From Protonemura montana (lineage: Eukaryota > Arthropoda > Insecta > Plecoptera > Nemouridae): DNA of 64,000 bases. Positions within the stretch are counted from its first letter, which is position 1. Each line of letters begins with the position of its first letter. Below are positions 12,101-59,190 of the stretch, piece after piece. The stretch lies in the NCBI GenBank assembly GCA_947568835.1, contig OX387606.1, positions 3,472,001 through 3,536,000 of the forward strand, given 5' to 3'. The position numbers were made by a program, and so were the translations under genes. The notes under the pieces are model-generated. The model ran no database searches and had not been told where the DNA came from. It saw nothing but the letters and a program-made list of their open reading frames with translations.

Positions 12101-15100
12101 ATTCCCATACCCATCTTGTAGTCTTTGGGCACCTTACCACTTCCAGTTGTTTGTCTTTGCCCCATACTTTGCTGGCTTTGTTAGTGAATGTTGAGAGCCG
12201 AGACGTTTGCGTTGCCTACCGACGTCCGACTGACCAAGCCCCGTTCTCCAGCCGTGTCGAGCTACGACCCGGCGGACTTTGCGGCCTCCCCAGCAGACAA
12301 CGAGACACAGTTTGTCATCTTCCCAGACGCTGACGACAGTCCGCGCTCGGACACGGTGCGGGACAGCCCTCCCAAGGACGCAGACGACGACGGAATCGTG
12401 CCCGACGGTATGTTGCAACGATCATAACTCGGGGAACTGTACTGCAAACCTTGGGCTGTCCGATCGGTGCTCCGGCCAAATGAGCTAATTGGTTGCAATA
12501 TTTTGAAGAAATTATTATCGTCGATGTGCTGAATGTTTTGAAGAAATTGTTTCCAAGATGCTATTCTGAGGACATGGCATGCCTGTTGATGGTCACCTTA
12601 GCAACTTAGCAAATCTTACGTTTCTCTTTGTTTTTTTGGATTGCCATGGATTGCATGGATTGCTATTGTTGCCATGTTTCATTTTTGACAAACAATAGCC
12701 AAAGGAAGCTTACGTATTCCCTGTGCAGTATCTGGATTGGAAATTTCAGCGGCGCCAACAATTGACAGTTAAATTGCGTTTCTTTACCACGTAGGCGCTT
12801 GCAATGGCGGGGAGTGCCGTCGATTCCTCGACACAGCCGCCATGTCGTCGTCGCCCACCGCCAACTACTACAAGCCAACAGACGAGCCCGAGCCCTGGGA
12901 CTTGACCCAGCTGAACATTGAAGCCAGCGTCATGTGCCTCGTCTCCAAAGTGAAGTTCCTGTGCGGCCGTTGCGGCAGCCCAGCTGTGAGTACCTGGCCA
13001 CTTATCAGGCCCTTGCACTTCGACGCTGATGTTAAATTTGAGGGCTTTAAAATACTATGTACCCATAAAAAAAATATATATATAATATTCCTCTACATTT
13101 AAATCTTGGAGGAAACTTCAGATTATGGAGCTAAGGGACTCTGTATAAGAGAAGGAATGGAGTCTATGAGAGGAAACAAATGATTTTGCAGGCACACTTA
13201 CCCCTGTTGAATTTCTTATGATAAAGCTCACAAACACTGTTGGTAAGTAGCTGTGTTTTCTCATATAAAGTATTCAGACATTGATATATTTGACAATGTC
13301 AGAGGCCTTCCTTCTATCATCTAAAAATCTTTATTTTTTTCTTGTCTACATAGTTCACTTTGCAGGCAGTTAAATTAAGAACAACGATCAACTGTAATCG
13401 GAAACAAATTAGAATGCGTTTTAGAAAATCTACTGTAAAGACAAGAGCATGCCGAGCCCGTTGTTTTATTCTGTGCCGAGGTCCCACGTTGCTTTACAAG
13501 CAAGAACGCAAACCACTGTCGCAACTGCGAGCAAGCCGGTTCTTGGAACAAGTTGGCTGGAGCCCGACCAAATGTTCCAATATTTCTCGTCATTTGTATT
13601 GTTTTTCTCCGGCCGCCGCCAGCCGAGATTGTCGTTGGACTTGGTGTCGTTGCTACTGCTGCGAGTGGTATTTTGTGGTGATTTCTCTTGCAATGTTAGT
13701 AATGTGTTGGATTGCATAACCTTGCCAATGGGTTGTTGGTTTGTGTTGTTATTTTCAATTGATTCGGAGCCAACCATTTCATCGGCGGCTCCAACTTTCA
13801 GACTTGGTAGTTGGGTAGAAACGCCAATGGCATGGATAGTCACATTGTCGCTGTTGACTGGTTTTAACTCGTTCATTTCTGTGGTGACTTCATCTTCAAG
13901 AGCTAATCGATTGATTGACATACCAATAGGTTTGGCAGTCATTTTGTCGCTGACGTTCTGGACTGATTGAGAGTGCTGCATTTCAACAGTGCCTTCATCG
14001 AAAAGCGAACCTAGTTTTGCAGAGTCAGTAAGCTTGGAAATACCTTGGAGAGTTGAGTTGGCATTTTCCACCGACTTGGAATGCTTGGTTTCATTGCTGG
14101 CTCTGTCAAGATGCAACTCGCTGTCAGTAGCTGAAAAGAGATCATTTAAAAGGCTATGAAGGATACAATAGTGAGAGCAAATAAAAAAATGATTGATCTG
14201 TGGTTCAGTTTTGTTGCTTTCATGTCACTTTTTCTTTCTTGCTATTTGATTTCTTGCAAAACCTTGCAAGATCAGGGTAGAGATCACGTGACTTTTTCCT
14301 TAGAGATAACAAACGTTATCTCTGTAAATTCCAGGGTTAGTTACATAAAGTACACAAAAAAGTTACATGGTCGATTTTGGCATAGAAGCGGTTTCCCATA
14401 AAGATTCACAAAGAATGGATTCCATTTTGTCACTTACCGATTACTACTGAAGCCAAGGAAAACACTAATAATGCAGCATGAAAAGTAAGTTTGATCATGT
14501 TGCTTTTTAAAGTCAACTCTTTGCAGTTGAATCTTTGCTGGTGAACTTTCTAGTAAATCCCTCACTTCAAGACTGGGATCGAGAACTAATCTGCATTTTG
14601 ATGAATAACAATTGAAGGTCAGGAGGCTATTGTTTCGAGTTAATGGCCCTGTTAATCTTTCTGCACCAGATCAGAGTCAATGAAGTTTTCATAAATGTTA
14701 GGTACTTTTGCGACTCGTGTATTTCTTTAGGAGCGGCAGCAATTAATGAGTCTTATCCTGCCCCTCCCCCCCCCCCCCCTTCATCCAATGCAAAATAGAG
14801 GTGTTGCAACTGTGTTAAGCACATAGATAGAAAAACAGACTACAGTTATGATGTTTTTGCTCTCTTTTTGTTTTCTGATCTTTTCATAGACACATTTTTG
14901 TCATTTGTCTGTTCTAATTTTATGTTAAGTAAAGATGACACTGACAGTTATTCCAAACTGTCTTTTTTTTTCAAATACAGTAAACTATTGAGTAAATTAT
15001 CGGTAGGTATTTGAAAATTTTCGTGCCACTTTGACAAGATTCGCATGCACAGGTTCGCCTGCGTTCGAGGGGCTCCATGAGCCGGTCCCGCAGCTTCCGT

Positions 15101-18100
15101 GCTGGCCCGGCCGCTGTGGAGCCAGTAGCGGTGGTGACGGCGCAACCCGCGCGACGCATGACCTTCGCCGAGGGCGCGGGGCTTAGCGCAGACATGACCA
15201 GCGAGGAGGTCATCGACAAGGTACCTACACGGCAGCGCCAACGTGTCTTAGCCTTGATAATGACAACCAGTTTTATCTTGAAAGCTGCCATTAACATCTA
15301 CTTCATGTTCATACCATTTGCAAAAATTCTCAGTTGAGTTAATAAGGGCTCACGAGTGGTCCTCGGGCAGTCTGCAATCTAATTGCTTATCGGGTATCAG
15401 TAGAGGTATGTGCTAAACTTTGTTGAATTCTGACGGACATATATTTGTTGAGTGGAATCATGAGATGGGGAGAAAGTTAAGTGAAAATAAAAATAAAAAG
15501 GTCTGTTGACCCAGTAGAAAACAGACCTAGGGGCTGTCTGTTAATCTTTAGTCCAAATTTCAGTTAAAATTGGCCTGTAATTGGTAACTGGCTTGATTAC
15601 ATCAGCCGATTTGGATATTGAAGAGTGTGTGCTCTACTGTTAAGTTGCTAAAATTAATCGCAAACCAGCTCGGTGGAACCAAAAAGGAAAACGAGCCAAG
15701 TGAAGAAGCAATGACCGTTAGCATAGGGTCAAGAGTCGCGACAGGTGGGGGCAAACAGTGATGCCAACGTTCTCGCAGGTGGCGGCCACTGTGACAGCGT
15801 CGGTGTCAGCACGCAACAAGTTCACCGAAGGGCTGGACTTTGCGTCGATCACCGACTGGGCGGGTGAGCTGCGACCGGCCATGCGCAAGCTGCGCCAGGC
15901 GATGGATGGCCTTCTGAAAACGGCCCGCCTCACGCACTCCGTGTTCCGCGTCCAGGAGGATGCCCGAGCAGCCCAGCGCGCCTGCAACGTCCAGTATAGG
16001 CGCGACGTTTGCTTCGCGCAGGCCGTGAGTTCCCAAACCCAGCTCCTCGCTGTAAAACCTTTGTATTTGTATTTTATTAGCTGTTGTTGTTCATTTTTTA
16101 ATGTGTATACATTGTCGTCAGATAGGTAATATTACTAGTAGCAGTCTAACATAACATATATATGTCTAACCAAGCACGCCCTAACCTAATAATCTCTATC
16201 ATAAAATAATATGATGCACTTTTTATTATGAATAATAAAATAATACGCCCTTAGAATTTCACTTGTGAAATTCTGCAAACTCAATAGAATACGAATAATA
16301 TATGACTAGTACTAGAGTGAAATCTGATTTAAATTGCAAACGCTTGCAATGCGTAGAGTATTTTGTTATTAGAAACATTAATAACCTCTCAAACATGTGT
16401 GCCCAAAAGGGAACTCGAATCCCGATCTCCACCTAGGTGGAGATTCCCCATTTCGAGTCCCTGTTTGGGCATCAATTTTTGAGAGGTTATTAGTGTTCCT
16501 AATGATAAAAAAAAACAGTTGTAGGAACATTTGCGTAAGGCTTCGTAAATAGTTTTGCAAAAAAGGCCGATAGGGTGTGTGGTTGTGTTTGAAAATAGAC
16601 TTGAAATTGTCCTTAGCATACTAAAGCCTTAACCTTACACTTCGCTTAAACCGCTGACTGATTGTCCATTGACATTCAATAAAACAATACTACTGTGACT
16701 TAATCAAAAAGAGTAAGGGTTGTGCTTGGTGCTGCTGGTCATCCTGCTAGGCTGACCGATGGTGTTCTTTGCAGCTAACGTCGCTAGCGGCAGGCTTGGC
16801 AGCTCGTCTGTGGTGTCGTCGCGCTGATCCAGGTTTCATTGCCGTGTTGGCGGCACTGGGTCCGCTGGCCTCGTTCCAAGGGCTGCTGTCGCACTGCGGC
16901 GACGAGGTGGACATGTGGGGCGATATGGTGGTTGCGGTCGAGGACCTTGTCACCGTCACTTTCACCATCACCCGTGTTTCGCCCACCAAGAGGTAAGGAA
17001 AGCTGAAAAGTCTTCTGCAGTAGAAACATTTGCTTGTGTTTGGCTCAGAATGTCGGAAGTGCTGCTGTGCTTGGTTCACTTAAAAGATGTTTTTTTTTTT
17101 TAGTCTTTAAACTGTTGGCTGGTCTAAAAAGGCAGGCAATAGTGATTTTTTTTGTGCCTGTAATGTCCAAAAGCATTCAGGGTTGTGTGGACTCTTTAGT
17201 GAGTCCTGTTCAACATCAAAGTCCACTGAGCGTTGTGGTTGCTTGCAGACCGGAGAAGAGCTGGCTTCCGCGGGCTGTCGGTTCACGTGCGGCGCTTACA
17301 GTGCTTCTCCCAGCGCCAGACTCGGTGATCGCGCTGCTTCCTCGCGCTGCGCCTCTATCCTTCAAGGTGGGCATTAATTGAAGATAATGTTTTGCTTATA
17401 AAAACTAAGCAGATTTGGTAGAAAACTCTGTCTTTAATGTAGCTGGTTTCATCACTTAAAAGAAAGTCGTCTGCGGCCTTTGTCAAAGCAATCAGTACTG
17501 TCATTTAAATGGGTGTTAAATTAGAATAAAATATATTGTAAATTGCAATAACAAGTAAGATTCTAAAAAAATACCTTTTAATTTTATCAATTCATAGTTG
17601 ACACAGCCCAAAAGTTCTGATTTGCTATGCAGAAAGTGCATGTAGTAGTTGACAGACCTGCAATAAATAAAGGAATAGGGCCAAAATACTTTCTACATGT
17701 TTGCTTTCTTCACCTTTGCCTCGGTCTCTGCAGGTGACTCCAGTGTTCTTCAACGTCGGCATCAACGAGATGGCAACGCTAGCTGAGTCGCTTGGCAACA
17801 CGAAGCCGCAAGACAAAAGCAACGTCGACAATGCCGAGCGGCTGGCTGAGTACCACCGTCGCTATCGGCGGCTGGCGCTGCCGAGCGAAACCAACGTCCG
17901 GCGCCAGCCACCGCTGCCCGCGCTCGTTCAAAGGCTGCGTGACGCTGCCGCATCCAGGATAAGCAAGAACGTTGATGTGCTGCATCTCTCTGCCCACATA
18001 TGCCGTCGGATGAAGGGTACGAGATTTTAAGGACTAGTGGTTGATGTGTCTACTTTTATTCCGTGTCGTTTCTCGATACCCAGTTTACGTCTCTCTAATT

Positions 18101-20244
18101 TTATTAATTTACTTTTTTCATGACTTTATAACGTAGGTACAAGTAAAGTCGGTGGTTTGTATAATAATAGAGCTACTTATGTGCTAGGGCCATAGTTTTT
18201 TCGTAGCTCAGCTTTCCTTGCAGCACGTTCATGGTGTGTGTAGGCAGGTTGTTCCAATATTGAAATTGCTATAAAATTAGTAGCAGATTGATTTGATGGG
18301 AGGAAACAAAGTACAGATTGCCACACGAACATTTGTTTAAATGCGTGCCATAAAATCAATCTTTTCTCTCAATGAAATCTTCTTTAATTACAAACGCTTG
18401 CAATGCGCGGGGTATTTTATTATTATGAACACTATAACTGTCTCAAAAATTGATGCCCAAACGGGGACTCAAATTCCGATCTCTACCTATCGCGGGTGTT
18501 GCTCTCACCCATTGAGCTACTTGGATACTTGCTTTTTGAGACGATTTTAGTGTATTTACTATTTGGGCATCAATTTGTGACCTGTTAGGGCATCAATTTT
18601 TGTTCATAGTGTTCGTCCAGTGTTCAATAGTGTTCATAATAATAAAATCTTTTCTCTCATCTAGCCCAGGTTTTCCTGGAGCATACAGACAATGCAAAAC
18701 TGGCAAAGACTGACTTTCCCAAATTTGCCTGGACCAGTTTCATGAACTCGGGTGTTTGTAGCCATGCTGCTTGCTTCACCCACACTCATCAACATCATAT
18801 CAGAGAAAATCCCAAGTTACTCCGTTACAAAACCTGATTTATTTATTTGTTTATTAATAGCTTTGGTATTACAATAATTACCTGAGGCTCATAGAATTAC
18901 AATAGTGTTTATAGAATTTAAAATATAATTACATAGATTTTGTGGTTAGTTTATAAATTTACGGTGGTATTTCATATTTTTTTGGGAATGTAGTCATTCT
19001 ATCATTGGCCAGCGCATTCCACAGTCTAATTGATCGGGCCAAGAAGGCTTGATGGCCCATGTCGCTATTGTACCTAGGGAGGTACATTTTCAGAGCGTGG
19101 TCATTTTTACCAATAAATGCAGGCTTGGAGATCATTTGGGCCACATCGTTCCAGGCCGGGTGGCCTGCAGCTGCCTTGTGTAGGCACCGCAGGCTGGCTC
19201 GGGCTCTTCTCAGGCTGAGAAACAACTTTCACCCTTAAAGCACTGTACATGCTGAGAGGACCTACAACCTTCCTGCACACATTCTTTGCAGGATGAAACA
19301 ATTTAATTTTGTTTTAAAATAACAACTTATTTTCCAAGCAGGATTCTGTTACTTAAGTTTCTGTCTTTTCCCTGGTGTCACAACAGTCTCTGCATCCTTT
19401 GCCCCTGCAACCTACCTCATTGAACAGAAAGTAAGGATCTAACGCCGTGACTGGTTTTGCGCTGTGCAGGGCTGCGTTTCACAAGTTGCAAGTCGGCAAA
19501 GGACCGGACGGGGATGTCGGTGACTCTGGAGCAGAGTCAGATCCTCGCGGGGGAGTACGATCTCTCGGAGCACGAGCACCAGCGAGCCCTCGACTGCATG
19601 CGAAGGTAACGCCATTTTCGCTCGGCTAGGTCAGAGATGCTGGCCTGCGTTGTATTCGGCATGAAGTAGACAGCAGTAGGACCATTTGGTATTCGCCAGT
19701 GGTTTCGCAAACTCCATGCTGCATATCCTATGTGTCTAATAGCACTATGGCATTAGTTACATAGCAACCTAATTCAACCTAGAAAGGATGAGGGAATCCC
19801 GGTACAGGCATGTAACCTACACCCTAAAGGGGCCAGTGCAGTCAAGTAGTACCAGCCTAGGTCTGCTAAAATAAAAATAAAATAGAATACCAACTTGCAG
19901 GGTTGGTTCCAGTTTTGAACCGTCGGTACAGTCGTAGATACTGATTTATCTACAACTTAACATAACGACTTATAATAGGCACATTGAACCACATGCTTTT
20001 TACCTGCCTATCTTCTCTATACTGTGAACTATTCAACCCACTCCAGACTGATTGATTATAGTAATCTCTAGCATAAAACATGACTTGCATATCCTGTGTT
20101 CCACATTCCAGCGAGGGCTGCCGTCGAGAGAATGCGTGCAAGAACACAGGAGTGCGGCGATACGCGTTCAACAGCCTGCAGCTGCTGACTCTGCCGCGAG
20201 CATATCGCCCACCTGCTGGCACCTATGGCTCGGCACAGACCTAA
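29..20244 (+). CDS. INPP4: Type I inositol 3,4-bisphosphate 4-phosphatase (INPP4 family), 20 coding exons
   Basis: Spliced gene of 3666 coding bases, about 1221 residues, in frame through 20 exons. The family hydrolyses the 4-phosphate of PtdIns(3,4)P2 to give PtdIns(3)P on endosomal and plasma membranes, damping PI3K signalling. Visible in order: PH domain (about residues 20-135, with [16 protein letters not shown]), C2 domain (about 159-300, with KYAKTELVE and [10 protein letters not shown]), a conserved middle block ([17 protein letters not shown]), the YRRDVCF and FFNVGINE blocks, and the catalytic loop CKSAKDRT with Cys about 1139 and Arg about 1145. Vertebrate INPP4A/B are about 920-980 residues and lack the PH domain, so this is the longer PH-bearing form. 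The ATG at 29 follows an acceptor at 11-12 and the frame is open up to it, so coding sequence or a 5' UTR exon may continue upstream of the window. The unusual splice sites are exon 4 donor (GTTCGT) and a probable GC-AG intron after exon 11. Confidence 0.93.
1984..2160 (-). mobile_element. tRNA-derived SINE-like repeat, intron 1, first copy
   Basis: It begins TGAAATCTTATTTAAATTGC, then GCAAACGCTTGCAATGCGCG, then a minus-strand tRNA-like block (about 2145-2066) with A box and B box. A second copy in the opposite orientation abuts it at 2161, giving a tail-to-tail inverted pair. Confidence 0.75.
2161..2320 (+). mobile_element. tRNA-derived SINE-like repeat, intron 1, inverted copy
   Basis: Plus-strand copy with the tRNA-like block at 2208-2280. 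It has a 7-bp acceptor stem (GTCCAAT with TTTGGAC), D-arm TAGCTTAATGG and T-arm box GGTTCAAGTCC. It is flanked by the family's AAACGTCTCAAAAA and TCAATTTTTGAGAC arms. Confidence 0.75.
2890..3345 (-). pseudogene. Possible decayed coding remnant in intron 1
   Basis: Minus-strand open stretches (60 codons ending at 3120, and further short runs near 2960-3100) read like protein but are broken by frame changes and stops. They have no splice sites of note. This is most likely an old transposon ORF; the family was not recognised. Confidence 0.25.
3768..3923 (+). CDS. INPP4: INPP4 coding exon 2 (PH domain core)
   Basis: Encodes [20 protein letters not shown] through the GPYGFTL strand. The acceptor is CCCCGGCAG and the donor GTAAGC at 3924. 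One base carries in and one out. Confidence 0.92.
3954..4495 (-). mobile_element. Dimeric tRNA-derived repeat, intron 2
   Basis: Two units in tandem: 3954-4288, with a tRNA-like block at about 4110-4035 and the tail CCAATTTGACGTTGGATTG, and 4315-4495, which lacks an intact tRNA block. The same two-unit order, with the same linker (GTTGTATTTATTTG), recurs at 46829-47275, so the dimer is itself a mobile unit. Confidence 0.7.
4879..5079 (+). CDS. INPP4: INPP4 coding exon 3 (end of PH domain)
   Basis: Encodes the last PH strand and its C-terminal helix ([15 protein letters not shown]), then a charged linker ending [10 protein letters not shown]. The acceptor is GAGTGCAG and the donor GTAAGC at 5080. 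Confidence 0.9.
5804..5958 (+). CDS. INPP4: INPP4 coding exon 4 (C2 domain, first half)
   Basis: Encodes [20 protein letters not shown] through [12 protein letters not shown]. The frame into exon 5 requires a phase-0 donor, which is the weak GTTCGT at 5959. The stronger-looking GTAAAG four bases on would break the frame. Confidence 0.85.
6087..6262 (-). mobile_element. LINE 3' UTR fragment with (TTTA)n tail, intron 4
   Basis: The sequence from TTTATTTATTTGTTTATTAATAG through GTGGTTAGTTCATAAATTTAC matches the 3' end of the LINE fragment at 18838-19230. The tail lies at the low-coordinate end, so the element is on the minus strand. Confidence 0.6.
6569..6697 (+). mobile_element. LINE 3' UTR fragment, opposite orientation, intron 4
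   Basis: Reverse-complement counterpart of the 6087 fragment (GTAAATTTATAAACTTACC through AAAGCTATTAATAAAAAAAT). The pair forms an imperfect inverted repeat around about 300 bases of unique DNA inside INPP4 intron 4. Confidence 0.6.
6725..6897 (+). CDS. INPP4: INPP4 coding exon 5 (C2 domain)
   Basis: Encodes [17 protein letters not shown] through [10 protein letters not shown], matching the NPIFLSS block of the family. The acceptor is GGCCCTCAG and the donor GTAGGT at 6898. Two bases are left over. Confidence 0.88.
7283..7433 (+). CDS. INPP4: INPP4 coding exon 6 (end of C2 domain)
   Basis: Encodes [15 protein letters not shown], the last C2 strand, then a Ser/Pro/Thr-rich linker. The acceptor is TTGATTTCAG and the donor GTGAGC at 7434; it ends in phase 0. 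Confidence 0.87.
7868..8070 (+). CDS. INPP4: INPP4 coding exon 7
   Basis: Encodes [14 protein letters not shown] and [17 protein letters not shown], matching the MYRF and EQMAESVLSLHVP blocks of vertebrate INPP4. The 3' end is clear (donor GTGAGA at 8071). The 5' end is not: acceptors before 7868 and 7808 both keep the frame. 7868 is preferred for its pyrimidine tract. Confidence 0.8.
8522..8682 (+). CDS. INPP4: INPP4 coding exon 8
   Basis: Encodes an amphipathic helical stretch ([20 protein letters not shown]) ending in [12 protein letters not shown]. The acceptor is TTCCTTGCAG and the donor GTACGT at 8683. Confidence 0.9.
9000..9601. mobile_element. Non-autonomous hAT-like DNA transposon (MITE), intron 8
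   Basis: 602-bp insertion bounded by a perfect 8-bp target duplication ATACAAAG (8992-8999 and 9602-9609). Terminal inverted repeats start TAGGGATTCCTCCGGGTA and, from the other end, TAGGGATGCCTTCGGATACC. Subterminal CCGGGT/ACCCGG motifs recur, as in hAT elements. There is no transposase ORF; inside are a C11-A17 run and a CTACCACAAATAA microrepeat. The 8-bp duplication and TAGGG ends point to the hAT superfamily. Confidence 0.8.
9743..9970 (-). mobile_element. 5'-truncated non-LTR retrotransposon with (ATT)n tail, intron 8
   Basis: Minus strand encodes [20 protein letters not shown] then stop, a typical LINE ORF2 C-terminus. Its 3' UTR ends in AATAATAATAATAAT as read on the plus strand. It is a different family from the 18.8-kb fragment. 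Confidence 0.6.
10138..10321 (+). CDS. INPP4: INPP4 coding exon 9
   Basis: Encodes [27 protein letters not shown] and YDVVTVGAF, which line up one to one with the most conserved middle block of human INPP4A (SFKASSLK, PTNLHIQRM, YDIVTIGA). The acceptor is GTGTGCAG and the donor GTAATG at 10322. Confidence 0.93.
10867..11131 (+). CDS. INPP4: INPP4 coding exon 10
   Basis: Encodes [20 protein letters not shown], matching the IIAQINTLKTQV helix of INPP4A, through FIEEHK. The acceptor is CTCGCTTGCAG and the donor GTGGGG at 11132; it ends in phase 0. Confidence 0.9.
11547..11742 (+). CDS. INPP4: INPP4 coding exon 11, probable GC donor
   Basis: Encodes an acidic Ser/Pro linker and [20 protein letters not shown]. 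No good GT donor exists before the stop. GCAAGT at 11743 is a perfect GC-type donor and keeps the frame with the acceptor at 12196-12197. A GT alternative (GTCCAC at 11747, acceptor at 12194-12195) also keeps the frame but is weak. Confidence 0.75.
12198..12407 (+). CDS. INPP4: INPP4 coding exon 12
   Basis: Encodes [16 protein letters not shown] and a low-complexity acidic segment ([20 protein letters not shown]), probably a disordered loop. The pyrimidine tract is weak. The donor is GTATGT at 12408. Confidence 0.78.
12795..12985 (+). CDS. INPP4: INPP4 coding exon 13
   Basis: Encodes [20 protein letters not shown] and a Cys-rich end, [13 protein letters not shown]. Four cysteines near the end are notable, but no zinc site is established. 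The donor is GTGAGT at 12986. The nested minus-strand gene lies in the following intron. Confidence 0.87.
13330..13335 (-). terminator. Candidate poly(A) signal of the nested gene
   Basis: AATAAA on the minus strand about 130 bases beyond the stop codon. A second AATAAA (13470-13465) overlaps the stop itself and would leave almost no 3' UTR, so this one is more plausible. Confidence 0.45.
13466..14130 (-). CDS. Nested gene exon 2 (repeats and C-terminal hydrophobic segment)
   Basis: 665 bases in one open frame to TAA. The protein repeats are also visible as DNA repeats of about 100-105 bases (for example CAATGGCATGGATAGTCACA and CAATAGGTTTGGCAGTCATT), so they arose by tandem duplication. Confidence 0.78.
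13466..14498 (-). CDS. Nested two-exon gene for an unrecognised secreted/membrane repeat protein
   Basis: It lies wholly inside INPP4 intron 13, on the opposite strand. Exon 1 (14498-14438) starts at an ATG and encodes a hydrophobic signal peptide, [20 protein letters not shown]; its donor is GTAAGTG. Exon 2 (14130-13466) follows a CTCTTTTCAG acceptor, and the phases match. The 241-residue product reads signal peptide, four degenerate repeats of about 32-36 residues (residues about 30-165, sharing E-x-x-x-S-x-S-[VI]-x-N and P-I-G patterns), an Asn/Ser/Thr-rich stretch, then a hydrophobic segment near the C-terminus ([18 protein letters not shown]). At least eight N-glycosylation sequons are present. 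The stop overlaps an AATAAA. This suggests an extracellular, possibly membrane-anchored glycoprotein. I recognise no family; it may be lineage-restricted. Confidence 0.75.
14438..14498 (-). CDS. Nested gene exon 1 (signal peptide)
   Basis: 61 coding bases, 20 codons plus one base. It has a positively charged start (MIK), a 14-residue hydrophobic core and small residues at the predicted cleavage zone. The donor GTAAGTG is a strong match. Confidence 0.75.
15053..15220 (+). CDS. INPP4: INPP4 coding exon 14
   Basis: Encodes a basic, Ser/Arg-rich linker ([14 protein letters not shown]) and SEEVIDK. The acceptor is CATGCACAG and the donor GTACCT at 15221; both ends are in phase 0. Confidence 0.85.
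15779..16024 (+). CDS. INPP4: INPP4 coding exon 15
   Basis: Encodes [20 protein letters not shown] and [13 protein letters not shown]. The latter matches LQYRRDVVFCQT at the start of the C-terminal conserved half of INPP4A. The acceptor is TCTCGCAG and the donor GTGAGT at 16025. Confidence 0.92.
16321..16515. mobile_element. Foldback tRNA-derived repeat, intron 15
   Basis: It shares the family's left end (ATTTAAATTGCAAACGCTTG). From 16361 it is a near-perfect inverted repeat with arms of about 74 bases meeting at 16434/16435 (CCACCT|AGGTGG). Each arm carries the T-arm half of the tRNA-like block, so the D-arm half is missing. Confidence 0.7.
16775..16992 (+). CDS. INPP4: INPP4 coding exon 16
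   Basis: Encodes [33 protein letters not shown] and [10 protein letters not shown], matching TALICGFI, AQFESLLSTYGEEL and NVTFKVTQ of INPP4A. The acceptor is TTCTTTGCAG and the donor GTAAGG at 16993. Confidence 0.93.
17249..17366 (+). CDS. INPP4: INPP4 coding exon 17
   Basis: Encodes [20 protein letters not shown], matching the VRVPLPGPLFDALPREI block. The acceptor is GCTTGCAG and the donor GTGGGC at 17367; it ends in phase 0. Confidence 0.9.
17734..18016 (+). CDS. INPP4: INPP4 coding exon 18
   Basis: Encodes [20 protein letters not shown] through [20 protein letters not shown]. It corresponds to VLFNVGINEQQTLAE and NKNVDILWQAAEICRRLNG of INPP4A. The acceptor is TCTCTGCAG and the donor GTACGA at 18017. 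Confidence 0.95.
18374..18660 (-). mobile_element. tRNA-derived SINE-like repeat, intron 18
   Basis: Same family: GCAAACGCTTGCAATGCGCG, a minus-strand tRNA-like block at about 18528-18451, then TTTTTGAGACGATTTTAGTG. The tail differs from the dimeric copies and repeats GGGCATCAATTT twice. Confidence 0.7.
18838..19230 (-). mobile_element. 5'-truncated non-LTR retrotransposon, RT C-terminus and 3' UTR
   Basis: The minus-strand reading ends with [20 protein letters not shown], the usual end of LINE reverse-transcriptase ORFs. It is followed by an AT-rich 3' UTR and a (TTTA)n tail at 18838-18855. It lies in INPP4 intron 18. Confidence 0.65.
19470..19605 (+). CDS. INPP4: INPP4 coding exon 19 (catalytic loop)
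   Basis: Encodes [20 protein letters not shown], with the C-X5-R active site of this dual-specificity-like lipid phosphatase, then [12 protein letters not shown]. The acceptor is GCTGTGCAG and the donor GTAACG at 19606. Confidence 0.96.
20112..20244 (+). CDS. INPP4: INPP4 coding exon 20 (C-terminus and stop)
   Basis: Encodes [20 protein letters not shown] and ends [13 protein letters not shown] followed by TAA. It matches the family terminus ([20 protein letters not shown]). The acceptor is CACATTCCAG. Confidence 0.95.
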
Positions 20245-21963: not shown

Positions 21964-24528
21964 TTATTCATTACGTTTAGTTCTTAATCTACCTATCCAA
22001 ATATTTTCTTCTGGATTATTTGTGTTGATTTCTTCTGTCTCCTCACTGATATTCTCTATTACATTTTTCTGTTGTAAAATTGTTCCCCAAGCTCTATCTA
22101 GTTGAAAACTATCATCTCTATTGAAGTTATTGGGTTGTTTTTTAATTTCTATTGCTTCTCTGACTTTTCTAGTGAATTTCCTATCATCTCGACATAAAAT
22201 CCTTACAGTGTCTATTTGAATCTGGTGTTGAAACTCATTTCCGTGTTCTGCACAAGCTGATTGATTCAAGTGTCTTTGTTTTTCCCCAACACTGCTAGAT
22301 TGTTTTGCTAATCTTATGTGTCTTTCGTGTTCCTTGACTCTTGTGCTAATTTTCCTTCCTGTTTCTCCTATGTAAACTTTTCCACACTCACAACTTACCT
22401 CATAGACGCCTTTGCATTCTAATGGAACCTGATCCTTCACTGGTCTTACCATTGTACTTATTTTTCCATCTGCCCTAAATGCTGTAAAAATCTGGTTTTT
22501 CGACAGTACTTTTTTAATTTTCTCTCCTATCTTAGGTACATATGGTAAAACTGCGATGGATTTGATTTCATCTAAACTTTTTTCACTAATTCCCTTTTCA
22601 ACTATCTCAGAGTTTATTTCCCTACTTTCTTTATTTTTTAATCGGTTCATTTTTTCAAGTACTCTTCTTATTTCTTTGGTTTTATAACCATTCTGTTGAA
22701 AAATGGTCCTAAGTGTTTCTTTTTCTGTCTCGTAGTGTTCCTCATCTGTTAATCTCGCTGATCTTGTCGCTAATGTGTTTAGCACCCCCTGTTTTTGGCT
22801 AGGATGATGACATGAATCTGCGTGTAAGACCCTGTTTGTGTTTGTTTTCTTTCTGTAGACTGTGTGCCCTAATGAGCCATCTTCTTTTCTAATAACCAAA
22901 ACATCGAGAAAAGCTAAACATCTATTCTCTTCTACCTCCATAGTGAATTTTATCCTATCATGTTGTCTATTCATGTGTTCTAAAAACGTATCCAAATTTT
23001 CTCTCCCATGTTGCCAAACCAAAAAAGTGTCATCTACATATCTGAAGAAGCATTTAGGTTTTAGTTCCGCACTATTCAATGCTATTTTCTCTAGATTTTC
23101 CATGAAGATATTCGCTAATGCTGGAGATAAAGGTGACCCCATTGCTATTCCTTCTTTCTGCTGATAAATATGACCATCCCATAAGAAATAATTGCACTTT
23201 AAACATTTTTCTATCAAATTGATTAACGTTATTGGTAGCCTAAACTTTCTACTATTTTTCTTCAAAATTCCTATCGTTTCGTTAAATGGAATGTTACTAA
23301 AGAGTCCAACAACATCTAAACTAACCAGCATGTCTCCTTCTTCCAAATGTACCTGTTTTACCTTTGATAAAAAGTCTTGAGAATTCTTTACAAATGATTT
23401 AGCTTTCATTACTGGTTCCCTTAAGACCTTTCCTATCGTTCTAGCTATTTCATGTGCTGGTGCACCTATCGCACTGATTACTAGTCGCATTGGCACTTGT
23501 ATCTCTTCTGAACTATCCTTCTGCTTTTCCCAATCTATTTTGTGAATTTTTGGTAACCCATAAGCTTTTGGAATGATTGATTCTTTTGGAACTAATTCTC
23601 TTTTTAACTTTTCTTCTATTGGCGCTTTCTCTAAGCATTCTGTTAATCTCTTCTCAAATTTTGTTGTGGGGTCTTTATTCAGTTTTACGTAATCCTCTGA
23701 TTGTATTACTTCATCCATTTGCCTCTTGTAATCTTCTGTGTTCATAATAACTGTTGCATTCCCCTTGTCTGCTTTCAAAATTACTACCTTCTTATTTTTC
23801 TTCAATTCCCTCAAAGCTTCTGTCTCTTCTGGTTTTGTGTTTTGTTTGAACTCTTCTGTTTTTCCCTTCCTTAAAATGTATGCTACATCCTGTCTTATAA
23901 CATCTGCTAATTTGAAAGGTAACCTTTTAACTGCATCTTCTACCCCTGCTATTATTGGTTCTACTGGAATCCTTTTTGGAGCTATTGCAAAATTGAATCC
24001 CTTTTCTAGAACTCTATTACCTGCCTCCGACACACAGGTATTAGATAAATTGTAAACTGTCTTAGGTTTTATGAATGTCCCTCTTGAACTCCAATTTCTT
24101 TGTTGTTTCCTGCATAAGTTATCTAGCTTTCTACTAAGTTTCTCATTAGTCATTTGGTGAAGCCAAGAGTTGTGATTGGAAACGATATAATCAAATCTAT
24201 CCCATAAATCCAAGGAAATAAAATCACATACCTTCGATCTGCAGAAATAAATTTGTTCGTTACAAACCCAAATTTTCTTTCTTGTGTCTTGAATGGTTTT
24301 CCGTAACAACGCTTTACTGGCCCTATCAAAAATTAACTCGGTGTTTTTATCCCTTAAGTGATGCTTGATTTTAATCCACGATGGTATCACATCTAAATCC
24401 CTACATCTAATCAGAAAATGTAATCTACAATCTAAGGTGGTTCTCTTCTCTCGTAGTCTTGCCAATCTATCTACTAACTTCCCACGTTTCTCCCCATAGA
24501 GATTCTTTATGATGGTTTTTAGACTCAT
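21964..24528 (-). CDS. Penelope-like element polyprotein: reverse transcriptase plus GIY-YIG endonuclease
   Basis: Uninterrupted 854-residue ORF. The N-terminal basic helical region is followed by the RT: PKAYGLPKIHK, MVSLDVVGLFSNIP-type motif A (seen as LVSLDVVGLFSNIPFNET), the AMGSPLSPALANIFME block, and the catalytic YVDD at residues 497-500 with both metal-binding Asp. A linker leads to a GIY-YIG nuclease (GVY at 707-709, VYIGETGRK from about 718, followed by Arg and Glu-containing helices). The enzyme makes cDNA from its own transcript at a nicked target. No stop or frameshift is seen, so it could be active. The stop TAA is at 21964-21966. Confidence 0.93.
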   Translation of the reverse strand: MSLKTIIKNLYGEKRGKLVDRLARLREKRTTLDCRLHFLIRCRDLDVIPSWIKIKHHLRDKNTELIFDRASKALLRKTIQDTRKKIWVCNEQIYFCRSKVCDFISLDLWDRFDYIVSNHNSWLHQMTNEKLSRKLDNLCRKQQRNWSSRGTFIKPKTVYNLSNTCVSEAGNRVLEKGFNFAIAPKRIPVEPIIAGVEDAVKRLPFKLADVIRQDVAYILRKGKTEEFKQNTKPEETEALRELKKNKKVVILKADKGNATVIMNTEDYKRQMDEVIQSEDYVKLNKDPTTKFEKRLTECLEKAPIEEKLKRELVPKESIIPKAYGLPKIHKIDWEKQKDSSEEIQVPMRLVISAIGAPAHEIARTIGKVLREPVMKAKSFVKNSQDFLSKVKQVHLEEGDMLVSLDVVGLFSNIPFNETIGILKKNSRKFRLPITLINLIEKCLKCNYFLWDGHIYQQKEGIAMGSPLSPALANIFMENLEKIALNSAELKPKCFFRYVDDTFLVWQHGRENLDTFLEHMNRQHDRIKFTMEVEENRCLAFLDVLVIRKEDGSLGHTVYRKKTNTNRVLHADSCHHPSQKQGVLNTLATRSARLTDEEHYETEKETLRTIFQQNGYKTKEIRRVLEKMNRLKNKESREINSEIVEKGISEKSLDEIKSIAVLPYVPKIGEKIKKVLSKNQIFTAFRADGKISTMVRPVKDQVPLECKGVYEVSCECGKVYIGETGRKISTRVKEHERHIRLAKQSSSVGEKQRHLNQSACAEHGNEFQHQIQIDTVRILCRDDRKFTRKVREAIEIKKQPNNFNRDDSFQLDRAWGTILQQKNVIENISEETEEINTNNPEENIWIGRLRTKRNE

Positions 24529-24849
24529 GTCTATTTAATTTATCCTTAGCACAAGTTTTTAGAAAAACTATTTGAACTGGGTTTTGAATGCTAAGTAAAG
24601 GGCTACTAAATTTCCCGACGTTTCGCAACATATACTAGTTACTTCTTCAGAGGTTTGAGCAGTCCTGACAATTTTCCGATAACAAAAGAACCACATAAAA
24701 TTATAACAATTACCTAGTTCGAGCTTCCTTAATGCATCTAAACAAAATAATCAGGGTCAATAACTCAAAAACTATTGTATTATGTATTTTCTGAAATAAG
24801 AACTCGAACACATTGGCGTTTTTTAACTAACTAATTATGTGTATGGAAA
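24507..24849 (-). repeat. Penelope pseudo-LTR, 5' side
   Basis: Direct partner of the 21569-21909 repeat, upstream of the ORF in its reading direction. It contains the start codon of the ORF (24528-24526) at its inner edge. Confidence 0.88.
24599..24665 (-). ncRNA. Predicted hammerhead ribozyme, 5' pseudo-LTR
   Basis: Exact reverse-complement copy of the 25226-25292 motif, on the sense strand of the element. Predicted cleavage is between 24617 and 24616. Confidence 0.72.
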
Positions 24850-53580: not shown

Positions 53581-53586
53581 CGACGC

Positions 53587-54471
53587 ACTGTTGACTGGCC
53601 ACCACACAATGTTAAGAACGCGGAACTGTACGCTGACGACACTAGCCTTCTGGCAAAGGCAAAGAAAGGTGATCTACATACACTAAAACAGGAAACCGAA
53701 AAGAAAATAACAGATGCAACATTGTGGTTTAGTTGTAATAAACTTATACTGAATAACGCTAAAACAATATCAATGTCCTTTTTGATTTCTAAGGAAGCTA
53801 ATGAAGCAGTTACGCCCATAGTAAACAATGCAACAAATGTAGTAATAGAAAATGTAGAAGTAGCAAATTTCCTAGGTCTTATTATAGATAATAGATTAAA
53901 GTGGGGTTGCCACATTGATGCCCTGGCAACTAAATTAAGTAGGGCACTGTTCTCAGTAAGGTCAATACGAAGAATTTCGGATATCGATACAACTAAGTTA
54001 GTTTATTACGCTAATATTGAATCTAGAATAAGGTATGGCCTTGAGTTTTGGGGTAGCACTCCAAAAAGCAGGAAAATTTTCGTACTTCAAAAGAAAGCTA
54101 TAAGAATTATGCTTAACAAGGGAAACCGAGTTCATTGTAAGCCTCTTTTTCGAAAACTGAATATATTTACATTATATAGTTTATACATATTACAAATAAC
54201 AGTGCAAATTAAAATACAATATGACGGACTGCAGAAAGTTAAAGATAGTCATCAACATTTCACCCGAAATGGAGACAACTTGAATGTTAGTTTATGCAAA
54301 ATGTCAACTATGCAACTGTCACCTGAACAGATGGGAATCAAGATTTTTAACAAACTCCCAATAAATATTAAGCATGCAGCATCAACAAATATGTTCAAAG
54401 AGAGAATAAAACTGTTATTGATGGATAAAGCATGCTACAGCGTCAAAGAGTTCATTGACTGCTTAGAATAA
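53587..54471 (+). pseudogene. 5'-truncated LINE reverse transcriptase
   Basis: Open from about 53587 to TAA at 54469. It begins just before the RT catalytic motif YADDTSLLAKA (53629 on), so fingers and palm motif A are missing. It continues with LILNNAKT, VANFLGLIIDNRLKWG and the C-terminal MGIKIFNKLPINIK block of non-LTR elements. The remaining frame is intact. The 3' UTR of the element resumes at 59191 beyond a tandem array. Confidence 0.8.
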
Positions 54472-57292: not shown

Positions 57293-58766
57293 ATAATAAT
57301 AATAATAATAATAATAAGCATTTTATTTCCAGATTGGTCATTACAAATAACATTGGAAAGTCACACAATATACACAAAAAAGTCACACAATATTTACAAT
57401 CTCGTTATTAATAAACTCATTAACAGAATAAAAGCAGTTGCCCATTAAATAGTTTTTCAGTCTGCTTGAAAAATCTTTATCGTTACTTTTACATTTTATA
57501 TCCATTGGTAAATGATTAAATAATTTCACACCACATGCAATAGGTCCTTTACTGTAATTTATTGTTGTTAAGTCATATAAGTTAATCTTTGCCCTTAATG
57601 TATAATCGTGGTGTTTATCATTACTTTCTTTGGTTAAATACTTATTATTAATAACATACATCACAATAGTAAAAATATATAAGCATGGTAATGTCATAAT
57701 TCCATATTTTTTAAAAAGTGGCTTAGTCGAATCTTTAAAATACACTCCTGGATTTGTCGGCTCATAGCTTGCATTAGCCAGGTATTTGATGGCCCTCTTC
57801 TGTAGTCGAAACAATTTAATAATGTGTGGTGAATGACCCCACAAGACTATACCATATAGGAGATTGGAATGGACATATGCAAAATAAACAAGTTTTGCTG
57901 TGCTGAAGTTACATAATTTTAAAATCCTTTTAACTAAATAGCACCCTGACGATATTTTCTGTGCAGTATTATTTATGTGGGTTATCCATTTCAGTCGATA
58001 GTCTATTGTCACACCGAGAAATTTCGTCTCATCCACTACTCTAATGCTTTTCCCATTCATATATAAAAGTGGTGTCATATAGCCATCTTGTTTGTCATTA
58101 AAACGAATAATTACAGTCTTATCAGTGTTGAGTTTAAGTTCATTTTTTAAGCTCCAATCAGTCATTTGATTTACTGCCAGTTTGCTATTTTCTACTATGC
58201 AGCTAACATTTTCACTTACGAGAACTGTGGTGTCGTCTGCAAAAGTAGTCAGAGAGCCTTTTGTCACCGCAGTTTCCAGTTCATTTATGTAGATTATGAA
58301 CAATATCGGAGCAATTGAACTACCCTGGGGCACGCCTACATTTATTACCTCTTCATCAGAATAAGTGACTCCTATTGTTTGATGTGTTATCTTCACTACC
58401 TGTTTTCTATTTCTAAGAAATGTTTGAACCCAATTGTTAGCCACTCCGCGGATGCCCATACCTTGTAGTTTCATTAATAGCAAGTCGTGATTTACCAAAT
58501 CAAACGCTTTTGTGTAGTCAAAGAAAATACCGTAATTCCTGCTATTCATTTGCATGGATGACATTAATCGATTTACGAAATTTGATATTGCAGTCGTAGT
58601 GGATCTATCCTTTCTGAAACCATGTTGGCATTCACTTAATAACCCATACCTCTCTAAAAATGCAACTAATCGAGCACAATACGCATTTTCGAGTAGTTTT
58701 GAGAATACAGATTGGAGTGCTATTGGCCTGTAGTTATTCAGTGTTGTTTTGTCACCCTTTTTATAT
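57293..58766 (-). mobile_element. 5'-truncated non-LTR retrotransposon inserted in the tandem array
   Basis: Minus-strand element with a (TAA)n tail (AAT repeat at 57293-57316 as read on plus). It interrupts the third unit between CCAAACAAAT and GCATCTGTCAAAC. The insertion post-dates the array. Confidence 0.85.
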
Positions 58767-58777
58767 GCATCTGTCAA
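57383..58777 (-). CDS. LINE reverse transcriptase (N-terminally truncated, frame open)
   Basis: 464 codons with YKKGDKTTLNNYRPIALQSV, FDYTKAFDLVNHDLLLMKL, GVPQGSSIAPILFIIYIN and the catalytic FADDTT (about residues 179-184), then the thumb and FLGVTIDYRLKW block and the C-terminal GVKLFNHLPMDIK. The N-terminal endonuclease is lost by 5' truncation. There is no native start codon; the reading runs into array sequence. Clade (CR1/I/Jockey group) not resolved. Confidence 0.85.
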   Translation of the reverse strand: MTDAYKKGDKTTLNNYRPIALQSVFSKLLENAYCARLVAFLERYGLLSECQHGFRKDRSTTTAISNFVNRLMSSMQMNSRNYGIFFDYTKAFDLVNHDLLLMKLQGMGIRGVANNWVQTFLRNRKQVVKITHQTIGVTYSDEEVINVGVPQGSSIAPILFIIYINELETAVTKGSLTTFADDTTVLVSENVSCIVENSKLAVNQMTDWSLKNELKLNTDKTVIIRFNDKQDGYMTPLLYMNGKSIRVVDETKFLGVTIDYRLKWITHINNTAQKISSGCYLVKRILKLCNFSTAKLVYFAYVHSNLLYGIVLWGHSPHIIKLFRLQKRAIKYLANASYEPTNPGVYFKDSTKPLFKKYGIMTLPCLYIFTIVMYVINNKYLTKESNDKHHDYTLRAKINLYDLTTINYSKGPIACGVKLFNHLPMDIKCKSNDKDFSSRLKNYLMGNCFYSVNEFINNEIVNIV

Positions 58778-59190
58778 ACTTTTTGCAAAATTATTTCTAT
58801 TTCACGTAAAACGAACGTAAATAACAGCGTTTGGGCTAAATTTCTTCAATAACTTTCATAGGCATGCATGAAGAGTAATACCGAGCTGCTGCGGGTGAGT
58901 AAAAGGCAAGTTTTGAATGAAATAAAAATCGAACTGTGAGACATGGCTCCAATTTTCCTAGGCAGGAAATTTCAAACACAGTTATCAATATTTCACCAAA
59001 AAAACGCTTTCAAATCACCCTCAAAGTGTCACAATAGGATAGAGATTTTAATTTTGAACAATTATAACCCAATTGCACACGTTTTTAACCAAATTTCGCA
59101 ATTTAAATCAACATGTACAGAAAAATGTTACCCCAGCCAGAGACAAACTAAAAAGTTGAACATCGCAGATTTAAGGCTTTTATATAAGGT

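Follow-up and report, generated by a model that had tools for sequence, protein, structure and literature searches.

The question raised by this locus is whether a frame lying antisense within an intron of another gene, in a window of 64 kb (the whole stretch of DNA analysed here), is a protein coding gene in its own right, what its product would be, and how old it is likely to be. The host carries a phosphatase catalytic motif (CKSAKDRT...SVTLEQ, at 19487 on the plus strand), from which we take it to be INPP4. The host intron and the structure proposed for the candidate are as follows:

12986-15052, plus strand: host INPP4 intron (2067 nt, phase 0), between the exons at 12795-12985 and 15053-15220
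14498-14438, minus strand: exon 1 (61 nt), with the ATG, the signal peptide (residues 1-20 and the first base of codon 21) and the donor G/GTAAGT, phase 1
14437-14131, minus strand: intron 1 (307 nt), GTAAGT...TTTTCAG
14251-14346, minus strand: piece of a high-copy interspersed repeat in intron 1 (all matched stretches combined, query 153-248)
14130-13466, minus strand: exon 2, with the remaining ectodomain, the C-terminal hydrophobic helix and the stop codon TAA at 13468-13466
13465-13470, minus strand: AATAAA overlapping the stop codon of the candidate
13335 (start), minus strand: second AATAAA, downstream of the stop

The coding frame (13466-14498) is wholly contained within this one intron of the plus-strand gene, the flanking exons of which join in phase 0, and is thus nested antisense. 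Exons 1 and 2 themselves join in phase to give a frame of 241 residues, and 14438 is the only one of the four donor positions tried that yields an open product of this length. Hence the arrangement described in the initial annotation, a two-exon gene with good splice sites and matching phase lying antisense in an INPP4 intron, is recovered. Intron 1 interrupts, in phase 1, the codon for Ala21, which is also the predicted cleavage residue; in animals, genes encoding a signal peptide are described as enriched in introns of phase 1 close to this site (PMC1626468). Among the genes of the fly, about 6% are described as intronic, and about 85% of those as protein coding (PMC3786989). One of them, 2mit, resembles the candidate in being a protein gene within an opposite-strand intron of an apparently unrelated host, Drosophila timeless2, and in encoding a protein that is predicted to lie in the membrane and has disordered regions; however, it is presented there as a putative leucine-rich-repeat receptor with insect orthologues (PMC3786989), whereas the candidate has no Pfam family at cut-off and no relative that we could find.

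Repetitive sequence is present around the coding exons and elsewhere in the window. The element in intron 1 has at least 40 further DNA matches besides itself, all at query positions 153-248. A 14-nt tandem repeat of 2.4 copies (14518-14549) lies 20 nt upstream of the ATG, in the presumed 5' untranslated region or promoter. Further away, minus-strand retroelement pieces at 21964-24534 and 57383-58801 match RVT_1, and a plus-strand stretch at 53581-54471 has the appearance of a retroelement on looks alone, with no Pfam match.

Exon 2 contains four tandem repeat units:

14009-14116, minus strand: repeat 1, 36 codons, sequons N33 and N45
13904-14008, minus strand: repeat 2, 35 codons, sequon N79
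13805-13903, minus strand: repeat 3, 33 codons, sequon N116
13700-13804, minus strand: repeat 4, about 35 codons (we placed its end, the matched DNA stopping at 13717), sequon N148

Comparison of the DNA with itself gave six in-register diagonals, at 99, 105, 108, 204, 213 and 312 nt; as these are the three spacings of 108, 105 and 99 nt, each a whole number of codons, together with their sums, they indicate four units in register. The matched stretches extend from 14116 to 13717, entirely inside exon 2. Seventeen diagonals were listed in all, 12 having an offset divisible by three, whilst the other five (542, 230, 64, 523 and 206) scored 61-67. DNA identity is 0.56-0.61 along the six ungapped diagonals and 0.60-0.67 in pairwise gapped alignments, the gapped aligner raising the value slightly. 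The best DNA self-match scored 146, a value that none of 200 dinucleotide and none of 200 codon shuffles reached, the null having a mean of 62 and an sd of 7. At the protein level, none of 200 shuffles reached the self-match in one test; in a second, which used five shuffle block sizes, 2-7 per 1000 did so over all offsets and 2-18 per 1000 over offsets of 25-44. The array was missed by standard repeat finders, one of which returned three two-copy families of 15 nt and the other nothing in exon 2. Every unit has a sequon placed at unit position 18, 19 or 20, with a second at position 8 of unit 1; in the aligned repeats the sequon columns differ by one or two.

The two most hydrophobic 15-residue stretches of the protein are residues 8-22 and 218-232. 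The first of these makes the N terminus signal-peptide-like by hydropathy, the only measure applied to it, and is accompanied by VIA, which follows the general rule for a cleavage site. Eight N-X-S/T sequons are present (N33, N45, N79, N116, N148, N174, N181 and N197), a mild excess over the 4.31 expected from shuffles (P 0.038). Both of the cysteines in the protein are in the hydrophobic core at 218-232, with none between the signal peptide and the tail. An alignment-free AlphaFold model of exon 2 is of low confidence (mean pLDDT 49, pTM 0.18), shows disorder over most of its length and includes a low-confidence helix at residues 40-55; the exception is the C-terminal helix, in the last two blocks (mean pLDDT 85 and 71):

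13481-13543, minus strand: predicted C-terminal helix (residues 217-237, with its hydrophobic core at 218-232); the four final residues of the polar tail lie beyond it

The signal peptide, the C-terminal hydrophobic segment, the eight or more N-glycosylation sequons, of which exactly eight were counted, and the four degenerate repeats visible in both DNA and protein (36, 35, 33 and about 35 residues) with which the candidate had been credited are therefore all borne out.

The simplest reading of the signal peptide, the sequons and the restriction of cysteines to the tail is that of a flexible N-glycosylated stalk anchored by a helix. Our preferred explanation, to which we assign a probability of roughly 0.6, is that the locus is a real, fast-evolving, nested protein coding gene, the product of which is a membrane-held, N-glycosylated surface stalk. 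Such a product would enter the endoplasmic reticulum, lose its signal peptide after Ala21, receive N-glycans along the flexible repeat region, and be retained in the membrane through residues 217-237 or thereabouts, leaving a tiny cytoplasmic tail. The number of repeats would have risen through in-frame tandem duplication, and little constraint on the sequence inside them may have hidden any relatives. The role might be that of an extended glycosylated stalk or coat at the cell surface, acting as a spacer, a shield or an adhesive coat in the manner of mucin-like stalks. Mucin-like and N-glycosylated tandem-repeat surface stalk proteins provide the comparison: they share with the candidate a signal peptide, worn repeats rich in Ser, Thr and Asn, sequons and a C-terminal membrane segment. 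However, each repeat of the candidate carries one or at most two sequons, prolines are scarce and no sequence was found to be shared with these proteins; the likeness is one of working only.

The main rival to the stalk is a genuine secreted gene with a product that is soluble or held by a GPI anchor, rather than spanning the membrane once. It draws on the hydrophobic core of the helix, which at about 15 residues is short for a membrane span, and on the small residues SGSS that precede the C-terminal hydrophobic stretch, small residues and then such a stretch being the form taken by GPI signals. However, the core is followed by nine mostly polar residues, KATWDLGTE, and a helix of 21 residues is predicted, whilst usual GPI signals do not combine a core with a polar tail of this type; we consider a soluble or GPI-anchored product unlikely.

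Both of these readings require the frame to be coding. When segments of 920 nt were drawn at random 6000 times, an exon comparable to exon 1, having an ATG, a hydrophobic core, a GTRAGT donor and phase 1, was found in 0.8%, 0.4% and 0% of cases with the hydropathy threshold set at 1.5, 2.0 and 2.3 respectively, the candidate having a value of 2.77; these draws overlap and come from a pool of 126.7 kb that is presumed to be noncoding. A comparable hydrophobic end occurred in 8 of 531 frames from the pool. Since a reader had selected the candidate out of 64 kb, no single rarity of this kind is a clean probability. An open frame of at least 252 codons arose in none of 3000 simulated 2.1-kb stretches, and one of at least 222 codons in three. 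Among the six frames the coding frame has the highest similarity between repeats, and no stop columns. When neutral decay of four units was simulated from an open ancestor (an observed unit; 2000 runs per setting), no stop appeared in 1.9-3.2% of runs at a mean identity of 0.59 and in 0.8-2.3% at 0.51; under a pairwise null, the repeats stayed free of stops in 0.95% of 2000 runs.

The GC content of exon 2 is about 0.46, against 0.34-0.35 in intron sequence. Its codon usage is lukewarm. With 24 kinase exons of the same genome as the yardstick, exon 2 has a codon score of 0.026 per codon (kinase exons having a minimum of -0.075 and a median of 0.20), which 3.4% of noncoding 330-nt stretches reach. 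When the yardstick is instead the window's own exons (784 codons), the score is -0.28, below that of all 11 exon stretches, each of which formed part of the data used for training when it was scored; among noncoding stretches of 663 nt, 14.7% attain the value of exon 2. The overall period-3 signal of exon 2 was reached by none of 3000 noncoding stretches. However, the repeats inflate this signal, only one of the four units stands out, and the non-repeat tail has no period-3 (42% of the null reach its value), hence we discount it as strong evidence. Between the repeats, amino acid similarity was not significantly higher than when the same changes were placed at random (P 0.10-0.16). Mismatches between repeats at the three codon positions number 61, 62 and 75 of 154 each, a slight third-position excess in segments that overlap and were summed. 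The dN/dS between repeats is 0.67 when pooled, with single values from 0, where dS is saturated, to 1.38, the segments overlapping and being in part saturated.

The alternative in which nothing is encoded, either because a degenerate noncoding tandem repeat of the intron by chance keeps a long frame open, with a fortuitous signal-like exon upstream, or because the locus is a decayed pseudogene yet to acquire a stop, gains from the weak codon score and the weak periodicity of the tail. Tandem repetition scoring at least 146 was found in 8 of 175 other stretches of the pool, such that repetition by itself is nothing unusual; 3 of 60 simulated 64-kb windows contained an open frame to match that of the candidate in length; and an open ancestor decaying to a mean identity of 0.69 stayed free of stops in 5-9% of runs. 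Against this, chance would have to supply a rare signal exon, a rare hydrophobic end, spacings of whole codons and an unbroken frame, all together, which leaves it improbable, slightly more so than the soluble or GPI-anchored product. We regard it as quite likely that the candidate is a real gene. Very remote indeed is a misassigned strand, with a plus-strand frame of 181 residues (13425-13970) serving as an alternative INPP4 exon: this frame is open, and codon scores do not separate the strands (0.035 antisense, 0.026 sense), but it has no Pfam match and shares its third codon position with the minus frame, a frame with a single tyrosine of which it may be a shadow. It is the minus frame, moreover, that has a signal exon, and across the aligned repeats it lacks stop columns altogether, where the three plus frames have 3, 14 and 16.

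Turning to the age of the candidate gene, relatives were sought in several collections. A protein search of its own genome recovered the two exons themselves and, apart from these, a single match at E 8.6 but no second copy, and no further DNA copy of the exons was found in that genome, the further matches (at least 40) being confined to intron 1; an origin of the exons from a transposon was rejected on these grounds. Pfam gave no family at cut-off. Membership of Snf7 (PF03357) was considered and set aside, the match of 15.5 bits (E 0.014) falling under the curated gathering cut-off of 27.3 bits and being likely to reflect chance; Snf7 proteins are cytosolic. No relative was found in PDB or NCBIfam, nor in PHROGs, where there was one match at E 0.3, and none of 54 pattern matches to viral contigs was confirmed. 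The literature, so far as its accessible portions extend, yielded no description of such a protein. The orphan status claimed at the outset thus stands for its own genome, Pfam at cut-off, NCBIfam, PHROGs, PDB and viral contigs, collections that do not cover arthropod proteomes at large, and on sequence comparison it applies to these alone.

Several other features of the genome came to light. A protein-search match at C15:6074569-6074928 sits in a giant exon, the frame of which stays open over 18133 codons; the 1120 residues of it that were read are acidic, and part consists of 144-nt tandem repeats at 92% match. Long copies of COX1 are present on a nuclear chromosome, at C4:5760925-5762262 and C4:5776811-5777755, the former scoring equal to the mitochondrial contig, C34; these represent either a recent nuclear insertion of mitochondrial DNA or an assembly artefact. 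The order on C34 is I, -Q, M, nad2, W, -C, -Y, cox1, L(taa), cox2, K, D, a pancrustacean arrangement, with cox1 called by Pfam, nad2 and cox2 by eye, and the tRNAs predicted; predicted -W(cca) and -L(aag) genes overlap or adjoin cox1 and are taken as spurious.

A recent birth, with which the initial annotation had considered the intronic location compatible, finds no support. Divergence among the repeats has brought their gapped DNA identity down to 60-67% with the frame still open, which points to an older, fast-evolving and weakly constrained gene; judged from the sequence, this suits the candidate better than a newborn one. Such evolution may deprive a gene of detectable relatives, a phenomenon treated as homology detection failure (PMC7660931). 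It is conceivable, though we hold it as a tentative proposal somewhat short of even odds, that the candidate is the founding member of an undescribed family, old and fast-evolving, of surface stalk glycoproteins with tandem repeats, in which at least one sequon is kept per repeat whilst the rest drifts and which is housed within INPP4 of a pancrustacean lineage.

Nested genes and repeat glycoproteins are well known as general kinds. The candidate is probably a gene, ordinary in type though less usual in its location, and no new mechanism is claimed. It offers a worked case in which the internal repeats of a single genome are used to distinguish a gene that is old and evolving fast from one that is newly born. 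If transcribed, it would be one more lineage-restricted surface glycoprotein, of a sort easily overlooked by annotation on account of being both nested and antisense.
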